DNA of 51,801 nucleotides from the NCBI GenBank assembly GCA_012519985.1, contig JAAYPC010000227.1:1-51801 (forward strand), in the 5' to 3' direction. The notes below the pieces were generated by a model. That model ran no database searches and had not been told where the DNA came from. It saw only the letters and a list, made by a program, of their open reading frames with translations. This stretch comes from Fibrobacter sp. (GTDB lineage: Bacteria; Fibrobacterota; Chitinivibrionia; Chitinivibrionales; Chitinispirillaceae). Shown here in pieces: positions 6,606-11,678 of the stretch. A program made the position numbers and the translations under genes. Numbering within the stretch: position 1 is the first letter of the stretch; every line of letters starts with the position of its first letter.

Positions 6606-7682
6606 TTAAAGCGGAAAATATCGGAGAAGATCTTTAATAGTGATTACACCAGAGATGTCATTGTAGTCTGCTACCAGAAGGCGACTGGTAGATTGGCTAT
6701 GCATCGTTTTGATTGATTGCAGTAGTGTAGTTGAGTTGTTAATGACGGTTTTCTCTGAGCAGGGGATGGTAAGGTCTGAGACCGAATAATTATGCCACTT
6801 GTTTTTAGGTATTTTTTTTATACTTGAGGAGAGTATAAAACCTTGGAGATGATGGTTTTGCAGCACCGGAAAGATACCTGTATGGTATCGATACAGGAAG
6901 CGGTGTACGAATTGGTGTAAAGAAATATCTACCTGAACAGTCACAGGGTTAGGGCGTAGAAAATCCTCTGCTTTTGCTTCTTTGAAGAATTGTCTGAATA
7001 GAATAGCCTCCTTATCGCATTGCATTGCTTCTTTAAAACACATAGCTATCATAAGACACCATATTCCATTTATCAGTAAACCTCTCGAAAATGAATAAAC
7101 GCTAAATGCCACAGTGAAAATTATCACAAATCGGCTGATCGAGAAGATTTTTTCTGCAGCATTTCTGATTTTTGACACGGTGAAGAGGTGATGAAGCGCA
7201 ACTGAGCCATCAAAGGGGGGAAGTGGCAAGATGTTGATTCCTGTGAGGAATATATTAGTATTGCTTAAGATATGAAAGATGGTGGGGATAGGTGGTTCCC
7301 AATTTTGTTGAATTCCTGTTAAATGGAGAAGGTGAAATACGGTTGCGGTGAAGATACTTGCAAGCGGACCGGCAATAGCTACGGAGATGAGGGCATCGTA
7401 ATTTTGGTTGTTTTTAGTTAACACACATCCGAAGGGGAAAATCGTCTTTTGGCTCTGTGGCAGACCGATCGCTTTTTCGGCTATAATGTGTCCGGTTACA
7501 TGTAAGAGCACAGAGATAAAAAAACCTGAAGCGACGATTAAAGCCCAGAAAAAGGGGGTGAAATAGTTTGAAAAAAGGAAGGTTTTTGGAAAAAAGTCGA
7601 TTTCCAGAGACCAGATAACAAGAAAAAAGAAAAGGAACCAACTGTGATGAATTTTAATGCTTCTAACAGTTAAAAAAAGCAT
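6606..7682 (-). CDS. Site-2-protease-like (M50) membrane protein with CBS pair, catalytic Glu missing
   Basis: A 358-residue polytopic protein with the layout of archaeal/bacterial S2P zinc metalloproteases. The N terminus IKIHHSWFLFFFLVIWS fits the family start. The zinc motif is altered: the family has HExxH, but here residues 61-65 are HVTGH, so both His ligands remain while the catalytic Glu is Val (codon GTA, one base from GAA). The third ligand, Asp158 in LPLPPFDGS, is kept. Two CBS units occupy about 245-358 (for example HQFVHRFLYRYHTGIFPVL and SGVITIKDLL). It begins 7 bp after the stop of the ferritin-like gene and has a poor ribosome binding site of its own, so translational coupling is likely. 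Intramembrane cleavage is unlikely; it may bind and hold a substrate. A sequencing error is possible but would need to be a clean single substitution. Confidence 0.88.
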   Translation of the reverse strand: MLFLTVRSIKIHHSWFLFFFLVIWSLEIDFFPKTFLFSNYFTPFFWALIVASGFFISVLLHVTGHIIAEKAIGLPQSQKTIFPFGCVLTKNNQNYDALISVAIAGPLASIFTATVFHLLHLTGIQQNWEPPIPTIFHILSNTNIFLTGINILPLPPFDGSVALHHLFTVSKIRNAAEKIFSISRFVIIFTVAFSVYSFSRGLLINGIWCLMIAMCFKEAMQCDKEAILFRQFFKEAKAEDFLRPNPVTVQVDISLHQFVHRFLYRYHTGIFPVLQNHHLQGFILSSSIKKIPKNKWHNYSVSDLTIPCSEKTVINNSTTLLQSIKTMHSQSTSRLLVADYNDISGVITIKDLLRYFPL

Positions 7683-7689
7683 TCCTGGT

Positions 7690-8244
7690 CTAAAGTGGGC
7701 TATTATGCTGATTAACTTTTAAGATTTCAGGATATGTTGAATTTTTGTATTTAAAACGGTTGTAGCCGCTTGAGATATCATCTATAAAATCTTTGGAGAT
7801 TTTAGCGAGTGTGAGAAGAAGTTTCTTGGTACAAACATCTTCTTCCAGTGCTGCGAGGCTGGAATAAAGGTTAAGGTCTTTTTCTGCTTTGTTTTGAGCA
7901 TATTTAAGTACAAATTCTGCAGACATTTCAGATAAGGGGACAGAGTCCTGCAGTTCACCTTCCTTGATAGTATTGTAATTGTAGAAAGAATAATTACTAC
8001 CTTTACTGTTTATAGCTATCATTTCCAAAATGACATGCTGTACTCGCTTTTTACCGGCCAGAAAGTATAAGAACAGTTTTACTGTGGAGTTTTTACAAAT
8101 TTTTGCTTCTGACTCAAAATAAGAAGCTGTTTCAATTATTCTATGGAGTGCAAATTTTAAAAAATCCAGATATCGTTCATTATTTATCTGTTTATTTCCA
8201 TCTGATATAATTTGAGAGTCTGCGGAATGTTGAATGTGTGTCAC
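7690..8244 (-). CDS. Ferritin-like/rubrerythrin-like helical protein, degenerate
   Basis: A 184-residue soluble, largely helical protein. Two parts resemble the two halves of a rubrerythrin-type four-helix bundle: FALHRIIETASYFESEAKI with FLYFLAGKKRVQH, and AQNKAEKDLNLYSSLAALEE with LLTLAKISKDFIDD. The usual E-x2-H iron ligands appear as KRVQH and ISKDF, so a complete di-iron site is not visible. The start is the GTG at 8244, set by AAAAGGAGCTACT just upstream. It is the first gene of a two-gene unit with the site-2-protease-like gene, and a sigma-54-type promoter lies 46-61 bp before the start. The function is unknown; the fold call is from pattern only. Confidence 0.7.
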   Translation of the reverse strand: MTHIQHSADSQIISDGNKQINNERYLDFLKFALHRIIETASYFESEAKICKNSTVKLFLYFLAGKKRVQHVILEMIAINSKGSNYSFYNYNTIKEGELQDSVPLSEMSAEFVLKYAQNKAEKDLNLYSSLAALEEDVCTKKLLLTLAKISKDFIDDISSGYNRFKYKNSTYPEILKVNQHNSPL

Positions 8245-8289
8245 AGTAGCTCCTTTTATTTGATTATGATAGGTGTGCTTTATATAACC

Positions 8290-8305
8290 AACAAATAACG
8301 TGCCA
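8290..8305 (-). promoter_or_regulatory. Sigma-54 (-24/-12) promoter for the ferritin-like/S2P-like unit
   Basis: Read on the minus strand the site is TGGCACGTTATTTGTT. The -24 element TGGCACG is a perfect match. The -12 element is TTGTT instead of TTGCW, and the spacing is the required GG-N10-G. Transcription would start near 8278, leaving about 35 bases of leader with an AAGGAG ribosome binding site before the GTG at 8244. The adjacent upstream gene encodes a sigma-54 activator, which makes a chance match less likely. The GC-to-GT change at -12 is the weak point. Confidence 0.65.
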
Positions 8306-8365
8306 GAATGTTTTATAGTTTAAAACAGAGGTAGAGGAATGATGAAAAAAACATTACTGAGGATG

Positions 8366-8380
8366 TTCTCAATTTGAGAA
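8366..8380. promoter_or_regulatory. Dyad TTCTCAA-T-TTGAGAA, possible activator (enhancer) site
   Basis: A perfect 7+1+7 bp dyad about 60 bp upstream of the -24 element and about 90-100 bp from the predicted start of transcription, which is where NtrC-family activators bind. A looser dyad, AACAT-N8-ATGTT, lies at 8350-8367 next to it. A related arrangement, TTCTCAA-N7-TTGTGAA at 9839-9859, sits upstream of the activator gene itself. Confidence 0.45.
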
Positions 8381-8397
8381 TTTTTACCAAGATGGGA

Positions 8398-8421
8398 ACA
8401 CCGGCTTTATTAAGCCGGTGT
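8398..8421 (-). terminator. Stem-loop at the end of the sigma-54 activator gene
   Basis: ACACCGGCTT-TATT-AAGCCGGTGT is a perfect 10 bp stem that overlaps the last codons and stop of the activator gene (stop at 8410-8412). No T-run follows on the minus strand, so it may stabilise the mRNA end or act as an imperfect terminator, and may not be a strong intrinsic one. Confidence 0.55.
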
Positions 8422-9753
8422 TTGTTGTTGTTGCTGGATCTTATCGATTTTACGATAAAGTGATGATAAAGAGATCCCCAGAGCATTACTGGTTTCGTAT
8501 TTATCACCGCCGAAATGTTTGAGAGCTAATAAAATGTGGTTTTTTTCGATTTCATCAAGATTCCAGACCTCGTTTGTCCTGGATGGCTCTTTGGTGAAAG
8601 TCTTCTCCATTCCTGGAAAATGCGACGTATCCAATTCATCGTCCTGGGCCAAAAGCAGTGCTCTTTCCAGCATATTTCTGAGTTCACGGATATTACCTGG
8701 CCACTGATATTCAGTCAACAGCTTAATTACCTTAGGGTTAACAGGCAATTTGGTATAACCGTAACTGGTCAGAATATGCTTTATTAATCCTGGCAAGTCT
8801 TCCTTGCGGTCGCGCAATGCGGGAAGGGTGATGGGGAATATACAGATTCGGTAATAAAGGTCTTTACGAAAACTACCGTTGTTGGAAGCTTCTGTTAAGT
8901 TGCGGTTAGTAGCACAGATCAGACGGAAATCACTGGTTCTGAGCCGATTTTCCCCGATTCGGCGATAAGATTTTTCCTCGATGGTTTTAAGCAGTTGTGC
9001 CTGGACCTCCGGGTCCATATCACCGATTTCATCCAGAAACAGTGTCCCGCCATCGACGACTTCAATCAACCCTGCTCTATCTCTGATAGCGGAGGTGAAA
9101 GCGCCTTTTGCATGACCAAAAAGTTCGCTTCTCAGAAGCTCCCCCTTGAGACTGGAGCAGTTGACTTCCACAAAAGCCTCATTTCTCCGGCTGCTGTGAT
9201 CGTGAATCCAGCGGGCCAGTACTCCTTTTCCGGTTCCGGTTTCACCATGTAACAGAACAACAGTGTTATTCATTGCCGCCACATTTGCGTATTGGACCAC
9301 TTTCTCTATTATGCTGCTTTCTCCAAAAAAGGGCTCACTTTTATGGGGGGCAAGCCTCTGATAAATGGAATCCCGTCTACGCAGTTCCTCAACTTCGAGA
9401 CCTTTTTTTAGGCTGATGGCCAGATCATCCATGTTTACCGGTTTGGTCAAAAAGTTGTAGGCCCCGTACTTCATTGCTCGCACGGCAGTGGGGATGTCGC
9501 TTACTCCGGTGATGACAATGATTGCCAGATGTTCATGACTAGAATGCAACTCTGAAATCCAATCGATTGCGTTCCCGTCTGGCAATTTTAAGTCGAGCAG
9601 AATCGCATCGAACTGTTCTGAGGCGATCAGTTTCTTTGCTTCTCGGAGGCATTTTGCCGTTTCAATGGAATAGCCTCCCTTAGTTAAGTAGCGAGTGTAG
9701 CCAAATAGAGTGGCTTCCTCGTCATCTACAAGTAGAATGCGTGGTGTTTTCAT
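8410..9753 (-). CDS. Sigma-54-dependent response regulator (NtrC family)
   Basis: A 447-residue three-domain activator. The receiver domain (1-120) has the acidic pair D10/D11, phosphoacceptor Asp54 (LLDLKLPDG), Thr82 and Lys104. The AAA+ domain has Walker A GETGTGKG at 170-177, Walker B GGTLFLDEIGD with Asp241/Glu242, and the sigma-54 contact loop at 217-222, which reads GAFTSA instead of GAFTGA. A Fis-type helix-turn-helix covers about 400-438, followed by five Gln. No histidine kinase gene is adjacent, so it is an orphan regulator; its upstream neighbour on the same strand is a Ser/Thr kinase. The likely target is the two-gene unit directly downstream, which has a sigma-54 promoter. Confidence 0.95.
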   Translation of the reverse strand: MKTPRILLVDDEEATLFGYTRYLTKGGYSIETAKCLREAKKLIASEQFDAILLDLKLPDGNAIDWISELHSSHEHLAIIVITGVSDIPTAVRAMKYGAYNFLTKPVNMDDLAISLKKGLEVEELRRRDSIYQRLAPHKSEPFFGESSIIEKVVQYANVAAMNNTVVLLHGETGTGKGVLARWIHDHSSRRNEAFVEVNCSSLKGELLRSELFGHAKGAFTSAIRDRAGLIEVVDGGTLFLDEIGDMDPEVQAQLLKTIEEKSYRRIGENRLRTSDFRLICATNRNLTEASNNGSFRKDLYYRICIFPITLPALRDRKEDLPGLIKHILTSYGYTKLPVNPKVIKLLTEYQWPGNIRELRNMLERALLLAQDDELDTSHFPGMEKTFTKEPSRTNEVWNLDEIEKNHILLALKHFGGDKYETSNALGISLSSLYRKIDKIQQQQQTPA

Positions 9754-9965: not shown

Positions 9966-11678
9966 CTATTCTGAAAATTGCAATATTTTTTTCTCTGCCT
10001 CTTCACAATCAGAAGAATTTGCCTCCCCATTGCAAAACTTATCCAGAAATGAACCCCATGCTTTTAAACAGATCTGCTTGTTATCTCTATTTGGTTTCAT
10101 TAAGAATCTGGCTTCGCTGATACGAGCCTTCTGCAAATCAATAGTCTTTAGTGTATGAACAGAATTGTCAAGCGAGCCTGCAGTTTCCAATGCCTCGATT
10201 GCTTCCTGGTAACGTTTAAGTCGCGAGAAAAGCTTACTGCGCAAAAGGTGAAAACTGGAATTGTTTGAATGTGAGTTCAGTGATATTTTTAAGGCTTTTT
10301 CCAGCTCATTTTTATTCAGATACATTTGCAACAGATTAAAATTTACAGTCTCCAGTTGGTGGCTGTTGAGTTTATCCCTGGCAAGGGTTTCAAAGAGAGA
10401 GAGCGCAAGGTCGTACTCCTTCTTCTCAAATGCCTTACAAGCCCTTTCATATTGGGAAGGTTGAGGGGATGGAGGTGGTGTAGTTTTGGTGGTCTTGAGG
10501 GCTGGTGTTGGCTGTTTGTCTGTTGTTTGTGGTACAGTTTTTAAAGTGTCAACTTTTACCGGTTCATAAACTTGCGCTTCAGGCTTTTTTTCTTTTTTTA
10601 AATTAGTTAAAAAGTATGAAACGCCTAGAACAGAAAGTATTGCCACCAGAATCCATGTAAGTTTACCTTTACGAATTTTCCTTTTTATGCTTATTTTGGT
10701 GGTTGTAGGGGTGTGGGGGTTTTTCAGAAAGTCCCTTACAACCTGTTCAGGAGACTGATTGGTGAATTTGCGAAGGACATTCATCAATTCCTGATCAAAA
10801 TCATCTGCACTGAAGTATCTACGATTCTTATCAAGACTTAAGCTCTTTTCCACGATATTGCAGAGTTGTTTTGGTATTGGCAAACCGGTGCTTTCAAGGG
10901 GAAGAAAATGTCCTTTAGTTTTTTTCTGAATCAATTCTGCCAATAGTTTTTGTGGGAAGGTTTTTACCCCTGTTATCATTTCATAAAGTACCGAACCCAG
11001 TGAGTACACATCAGATCTTTGATCCAGTTTTTCACCATTAAGTTGTTCAGGGCTCAAGTAGGCAAAAGTACCCATTACTTTTGTGCCGACAGTATGCAGG
11101 CTGGCTTCACTTGGTCGGGCAATTCCGAAATCGGCAAGTTTGACCTTGCCCTGGGAGGTGATAAGTATATTTGCCGGTTTAATATCTCTGTGTATCAAGC
11201 CGTCATAAACTTTGCCATACAGAGTCATGTCACGGTTATAGGCATATTGTAATGCGGTGCAGACGAAATGACAAACGGAGATAGAGAATATTATAGGAAG
11301 TCTGGTGTGACGCTCGATCAGTTCTTTGAGTGAGGGGCCGTCCACATATTCCATTTCGATATACGGAATAGAATTCCAATGCCCCATGCCGTATATTTCC
11401 ACGATATTATCATGTCGCAGATTTGCTGAAATTTTGCCTTCTGTTTCAAGACGCCCCCGTGATTCATCATTAAAACCAGGTTTGAGAATTTTTATGGCCC
11501 TGACCATTTCCAATTGCTCATGCCATACTTTATAAACGTTAGCCATTCCACCGGCAGCAATAAGAGAAACGACCCTGCAATGGCCTAAACGGTCGCCCTC
11601 ATGAAGCATCTGGTCCAAGATTGCCGGATCGGAAATAATGGACAGCTTCCGATTGGAATCGATTCTGGTAGTGCTCAT
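9966..11678 (-). CDS. Membrane Ser/Thr protein kinase (PknB-like) with TPR-like extracytoplasmic part
   Basis: A 570-residue bacterial Hanks-type kinase. The kinase domain (about 30-310) has the glycine loop AAGGMANVYKV, Lys63 in AIKIL, HRDIKPANIL with Asp165, Lys167 and Asn170, DFG at 183-185, and GTFAYLSPEQ (APE equivalent). A basic stretch then leads into one membrane helix at about 341-359 (WILVAILSVLGVSYFLTNL). A Thr/Pro/Lys-rich linker (about 375-410) and a helical region with TPR-like repeats (about 410-560) follow, probably outside the membrane. All catalytic residues are present. It lies 212 bp upstream of the sigma-54 activator on the same strand; whether they work together is not shown. 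Confidence 0.93.
   Translation of the reverse strand: MSTTRIDSNRKLSIISDPAILDQMLHEGDRLGHCRVVSLIAAGGMANVYKVWHEQLEMVRAIKILKPGFNDESRGRLETEGKISANLRHDNIVEIYGMGHWNSIPYIEMEYVDGPSLKELIERHTRLPIIFSISVCHFVCTALQYAYNRDMTLYGKVYDGLIHRDIKPANILITSQGKVKLADFGIARPSEASLHTVGTKVMGTFAYLSPEQLNGEKLDQRSDVYSLGSVLYEMITGVKTFPQKLLAELIQKKTKGHFLPLESTGLPIPKQLCNIVEKSLSLDKNRRYFSADDFDQELMNVLRKFTNQSPEQVVRDFLKNPHTPTTTKISIKRKIRKGKLTWILVAILSVLGVSYFLTNLKKEKKPEAQVYEPVKVDTLKTVPQTTDKQPTPALKTTKTTPPPSPQPSQYERACKAFEKKEYDLALSLFETLARDKLNSHQLETVNFNLLQMYLNKNELEKALKISLNSHSNNSSFHLLRSKLFSRLKRYQEAIEALETAGSLDNSVHTLKTIDLQKARISEARFLMKPNRDNKQICLKAWGSFLDKFCNGEANSSDCEEAEKKILQFSE

Follow-up and report, generated by a model that had tools for sequence, protein, structure and literature searches.

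The window (the whole stretch of 51,801 nucleotides that was analysed) quite probably carries a small sigma-54 operon run by the regulator gene that adjoins it, here called REG, whose product is predicted to act through a dyad and a promoter placed before FER, the gene for a ferritin-like protein. The basis of this reading at the sequence level is the set of elements themselves, their order, their spacing and the presence of a good sigma-54 site ahead of FER in 10/10 genomes. In the mechanism that we envisage, phosphorylated REG would bind the pair of dyads at 8366-8398 and would loop from there to the RNA polymerase that sigma-54 keeps at 8290-8305, likely switching on the ferritin-like protein together with a membrane protein resembling site-2 proteases (S2P).

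The sigma-54 promoter sequence before FER

The promoter sequence, recognized by direct reading and by pattern search, occupies 8290..8305 of the minus strand (TGGCACGTTATTTGTT). Read from 8305 to 8290 it is TGGCACG-TTAT-TTGTT, with a perfect -24 half and the correct GG-N10-G spacing, just as the initial annotation had it, and with a -12 half that has T for C (TTGTT rather than TTGCW), which makes it near-consensus. The exact pattern TGGCACGNNNNTTG has this site as its single match in the window, against 0.067 expected per mononucleotide-shuffled window, while one mismatch raises the count to 3 against 2.42 expected; throughout the 4.74-Mb genome, TGGCACGNNNNTTGNT has 3 matches, the FER-promoter site included, and none in the backward control. 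Transcription is predicted, by arithmetic only (12 nt past the G of the -12 element), to start at about 8280 on the minus strand, and a Shine-Dalgarno AGGAG is found at 8250..8254, ahead of the GTG start of FER at 8244. RpoN is encoded in the window's own genome, as are 18 matches to the activator domain PF00158.

Conservation was followed in 24 genomes of one Fibrobacterota MAG family, among which the window's own is designated G000. FER-like genes occur in 11/24 of them, the match in G001 being just 23% identical, and REG orthologues (at least 72% identity) and FER (at least 37%) are present in the same 10 genomes, a co-occurrence that may be due to a single clade; the two genes are adjacent in 9/10. 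Upstream of FER, the highest-scoring sigma-54 site attains 11.1-12.7 of 13 in 10/10 genomes and at least 11.8 in 9/10 (11.1 in locus L107, 11.8 in L112 and at least 11.9 in the remaining ones). None of 137 other upstream regions from the same loci reaches 11.8, and 9% reach 11.1; before the 23% identical gene of G001 the best site scores 10.6. Regulator and FER lie on separate contigs in G022, where FER keeps both the site (TGGCACGTTATTTGAT) and a dyad (10/12, gap 61), so the promoter can be told apart from the regulator gene's 3' end. No sigma-54 site of at least 11.5 was found in the 9.8 kb around the G022 regulator, and the only dyads of at least 10 there are two imperfect ones, neither of them beside the 3' end of the regulator. 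The sigma-54 promoter sequence before FER is thus real and conserved, and transcription from it would depend on RpoN.

The regulator and its variant loop

REG (8410..9753, minus strand) is an NtrC-family response regulator, in which Pfam finds, in order, a receiver domain (REC, PF00072), the AAA+ sigma-54 interaction domain (PF00158) and a Fis-type helix-turn-helix (HTH_8, PF02954), in keeping with the initial assignment of the neighbouring gene to this family of activators. An alignment of 14 sequences has the phosphorylatable D54 intact, along with D10/D11, T82 and K104, and likewise the Walker A motif GETGTGK and DEIGDM. The L1 loop reads GAFTSA, a variant of GAFTGA whose Ser is invariant in 14/14 alignment rows, and GAFTSA or GSFTSA is found in 23/23 members of the subfamily in the tree, whereas the three outgroups have GAFTGA. 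A loop motif could be extracted from 66 of the 80 related loci kept, and in 11/66 it ends in SA; these SA-loop loci belong to Fibrobacterota, Nitrospirota, Verrucomicrobia and Syntrophaceae, plus a single locus each in Blastocatellia and Saprospiraceae.

The receiver and AAA+ domains match those of the solved NtrC-family response regulators 4l4u, 3dzd and 1ny5, the first of them over nearly the full length, and the phosphorylation and Walker residues are kept. REG differs from these proteins in its GAFTSA/GSFTSA subfamily loop and in that the window has no adjoining kinase gene. According to the available text of PMC4641369, the sigma-54 activator genes of Desulfovibrio vulgaris often adjoin the promoters that they control and most of their regulons comprise one to four operons, an arrangement of co-localized promoter and small regulon that REG shares, albeit in a different phylum and with other targets. 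That text also has 12/37 of the D. vulgaris activators deviating from GAFTGA, and the eight tolerated variants that it quotes do not include GAFTSA; nor did we find GAFTSA mentioned in the open-licence literature searched.

The dyad and its second copy

A perfect dyad, TTCTCA-N3-TGAGAA, lies at 8366..8380 and is predicted from the sequence and from genome searches to be an upstream activating (enhancer) site. In its extended form, TTCTCAA-n-TTGAGAA (minus-strand reading TTCTCAAATTGAGAA), it has its centre 93 bp ahead of the predicted start, within the 90-100 bp initially claimed, and a second, degenerate site (TTCCCATCTTGGTAA, 9/12) is found at 8384..8398 of the minus strand, 18 bp further upstream. 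With at most one mismatch the dyad is not enriched in its own genome (22 places against 21 in the backward control) and for that reason it was rejected as evidence by itself; across the 24 family genomes, the exact dyad occurs at 26 places against 7 in the backward control. Its possible role as a terminator was rejected as well, given an RNA fold of -3.6 kcal/mol; the stronger candidate for a transcript end is a G+C-rich hairpin at 8397..8422 (-17.9 kcal/mol), which overlaps the REG stop codon and is followed by no T-run on the minus strand.

Conservation in relatives, on which the initial annotation had staked its proposal, is complete for the promoter (10/10) and mixed for the dyad, which is strong in six of these genomes and weak or absent near the promoter in four. 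In 6/10 (the window, L104, L105, L109, L110 and L111), a dyad of at least 10/12 and the -24 element are separated by 40-63 bp. The weak or absent cases within 150 bp are L106, where it was found solely 358 bp upstream, L107 and L112, where it is at chance level, and L108, where it scores 9/12, a value met by 14% of shuffles. Paired copies 18-21 bp apart, or about two helical turns, are seen in five loci (18 bp in the window, 19 bp in L104, L105 and L106, and 21 bp in L110); in L108, L109 and L112 the copies are weak and their spacing is 12 bp.

Dyad-promoter pairs elsewhere

Among the family's 26 exact dyads, seven are accompanied at 60-81 bp by a sigma-54 site scoring at least 12, as are 2.8% of positions drawn at random from those loci, and two of these seven are FER promoters (the window and G015). 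Thirteen of the 26 overlap a reading frame of at least 80 aa, including two (L151 and L160) that belong to the promoter set; in the window's own genome, the dyads at C20 and C271, which overlap reading frames and lack a good sigma-54 site within reach, were taken as chance. The pattern TGGYAYNNNNNTTGYW matches 83 sigma-54-like sites in this genome, where the backward control matches 30, and the search for the same dyad at such sites, proposed in the initial annotation, did yield an excess: 3/83 have one of at least 11/12 in the 220 bp scanned upstream, against 0.08 expected from mononucleotide shuffles.

The three pairs are the FER promoter, C104 (gap 81) and C116 (gap 122). The C104 promoter, an exact dyad with a near-consensus site, precedes the gene for a 228-aa, probably secreted protein, and its two nearest homologues, in G015 and G016, have sites scoring 12.1 and 11.8, from which dyads of just 8 and 10 of 12 are 116-117 bp away. 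The gene at C116 (L144:4246-4530; orthologues L257-L265) encodes a 65-aa 4Fe-4S ferredoxin by Pfam, and 8/10 of its orthologues (at least 63% identity) have a sigma-54 site of at least 11.2. Its dyad is found in G000 alone and is absent in the 7 other genomes that keep the site, which renders one of the three pairs doubtful, and the ferredoxin was accordingly rejected as a firm second target. Orthologues of this ferredoxin at or above 63% occur in exactly the 10 regulator-bearing genomes, the next best match being 47%. One-mismatch dyads number 18 in the window's own genome, and among the 11 whose loci were scored two are near a sigma-54 site of at least 11.3, namely C116 and C184 (L145:4199-4556); the latter dyad and its site (score 11.3) are 74 bp apart, and the frame downstream resembles a thiamine-diphosphate enzyme and stops after about 28 codons. 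The view of activator, site, promoter and targets as one compact regulon agrees with their being largely co-conserved, though it is perhaps slightly too narrow, as the C104 promoter also fits.

Beyond the exact motif, the SA-loop loci have a relaxed dyad (TTCKCA/TGMGAA) of at least 10/12 at 4/12 of their sigma-54 sites, one of these pairs (L025) being the G015 FER locus itself, compared with 4/49 for the remaining 55 loci and 1.6% for random positions. Dyad and promoter occur together close to regulators of this subfamily in Nitrospirota, Verrucomicrobia and Syntrophaceae, at gaps of 84, 66 and 64, respectively. In G001, which has a 61% identical paralogue, three sigma-54 sites around that regulator (L113:6264, 6419 and 9329; G001:C120) are accompanied by full TTCKCA-N4-TGMGAA dyads; no sigma-54 site of at least 11.3 with a dyad of at least 10 was found in the six other paralogue loci L115, L116, L118, L119, L121 and L122. 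One of the G001 sites precedes a rubrerythrin gene (PF02915), which shares its dyad with a divergent FER-like gene. At G017:C39 (L152/L161), in a genome without a regulator orthologue of at least 72%, two near-identical dyad and sigma-54 promoters stand in a row before genes for a membrane protein and an SDR-like protein. A gene for a DHH-like phosphoesterase has a sigma-54 site upstream in L225 (G000:C279) and L151 (G016:C105), and a large histidine kinase is encoded within a few kb of the DHH-like gene in these two loci and in L290 (G015:C336).

A candidate sensor kinase

No sensor kinase gene stands beside REG in the window, and our results suggest as the best candidate the REC-PAS histidine kinase at G000:C83, whose gene lies beside that of a paralogous regulator 63% identical to REG. 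The paralogous regulators at C83 and G018:C30 precede a histidine kinase gene, and the one at G018:C30 has exact tandem dyads without a good sigma-54 site. In Nitrospirota the regulator comes after a histidine kinase gene (by Pfam in L031 and by eye in L027), and in G004 such a gene follows FER. A full-length C83-type kinase (51%) is encoded in G016, with no C83-type regulator among the matches listed, and in G014 a C83-type kinase follows a typA-like gene, again without a C83-type regulator; the occurrence of these kinases apart from that regulator suggests that the C83 kinase could serve REG.

A Ser/Thr protein kinase gene (9966-11678) lies upstream of REG on the same strand and is in place in G014 and G018, while G023 has a 28% match to it on the other strand. 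It was dismissed as the partner of REG, which it adjoins in the window, G014 and G018 and not in most relatives. As for the signal, redox or iron stress would be a guess, drawn from the dyad shared by the rubrerythrin and FER-like genes of G001.

The predicted target proteins

FER (7690..8244, minus strand) encodes a 184-aa protein with a predicted ferritin-like four-helix bundle that lacks the canonical di-iron ligands. Ferritins and rubrerythrins bind their two irons through Glu and ExxH; helix 2 of FER reads R-V-Q-H, with a His that is not kept in wider relatives, and helix 4 has no ExxH. Compared with ferritin, bacterioferritin, Dps and COG1633, FER has 6-14% identity and misses the ExxH ligand pairs, and it has no ferritin-type Pfam match. 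The term ferritin-like used at first has some backing from the predicted fold, and none from the domain match or the metal ligands.

The S2P-like gene (6606..7682, minus strand), for an M50 membrane protein with CBS domains by Pfam, starts 7 nt after FER, and the two are likely on one transcript, judging by their arrangement. The protein shares these domains and the conserved DG region with the site-2 protease family M50, and departs from it at the HExxH position, which reads HVTGH in the window and HV[TS]GH in 8/9 of the nearest homologues; HExxH is kept in 4/4 family orthologues. The catalytic Glu has thus become Val in the window's clade and is intact in wider relatives, so that the label of pseudo-site-2-protease suits the clade and not the wider family. 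With no ferroxidase ligands in FER and no catalytic Glu in its companion, both products are more likely to be binding or scaffold proteins than enzymes.

Alternative explanations

The HTH of the C83 paralogue is very like that of REG, with a near-identical recognition helix (ALGISLSSLYRKL), and its counterpart in G018, where exact tandem dyads are followed by a kinase gene, implies that two regulators may share a site. It could be, then, that the paralogue with its own kinase is the true activator, or that both act, the neighbour not being the main regulator. We find this unlikely, because in 7/10 FER genomes (all except G000, G014 and G018) there is no second regulator of at least 59% among the matches listed and FER nevertheless keeps its sigma-54 site; the adjacency of regulator and FER in 9/10 also speaks against C83 as the main activator. 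A different objection is that the dyad is a chance palindrome or serves some other regulator as its operator, and that a different activator may work with the sigma-54 site. Its frequency in the genome at up to one mismatch, no higher than in the backward control, agrees with this, as do the four FER promoters where it is weak or absent and the six paralogue loci without a pair, but the excess of exact dyads in the family, their coupling to sigma-54 sites and the same pairing of dyad and promoter in three other bacterial groups make it quite improbable.

Transcription of FER mainly by read-through from REG, or from a sigma-70 promoter, would turn the -24/-12 match into an incidental one. FER does lie on the same strand as REG, 165 bp after it, yet the site is kept in 10/10 FER upstream regions, including that of G022, which has no REG upstream, and the G+C-rich hairpin stands at the REG stop, leaving this explanation barely credible. 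Control of FER by the adjacent REG, through the dyad and the sigma-54 promoter, is the reading that we prefer.

Novelty and significance

The initial annotation recognized no known match for this system, which is fair for the genes involved; the design, on the other hand, is an ordinary one, as the available text of PMC4641369 illustrates. The kind of control is known, and its members, the loop variant and the pseudo-enzyme targets are new to this analysis. In the part of the open-licence literature listed by our searches we noticed no study of sigma-54 regulation in Fibrobacterota, and nothing that joins Chitinispirill- with sigma-54; the main text of PMC12316311, as far as available, has no mention of Fibrobacter, ferritin, rubrerythrin or ferredoxin.

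A wider proposal, which we put forward tentatively and rate at somewhat under an even chance, is that GAFTSA-loop regulators across Fibrobacterota, Nitrospirota, Verrucomicrobia and Syntrophaceae form a subfamily that reads one conserved enhancer, TTCKCA-N3/4-TGMGAA, some 40-90 bp before its promoters, and that one copy in Chitinispirillaceae lost its kinase and came to serve solely a pseudo-enzyme operon, formed by a ligand-less ferritin and a protease losing its catalytic Glu. GAFTSA represents a natural substitution, shared by the whole subfamily, in the loop by which activators of this type contact sigma-54. Should FER and its companion prove to be inactive relatives of ferritin and S2P, the operon would be a case of regulated pseudo-enzymes, for which intact and decayed S2P copies are both available for comparison, and for the Fibrobacterota these results provide a testable regulon, with its site and its activator.
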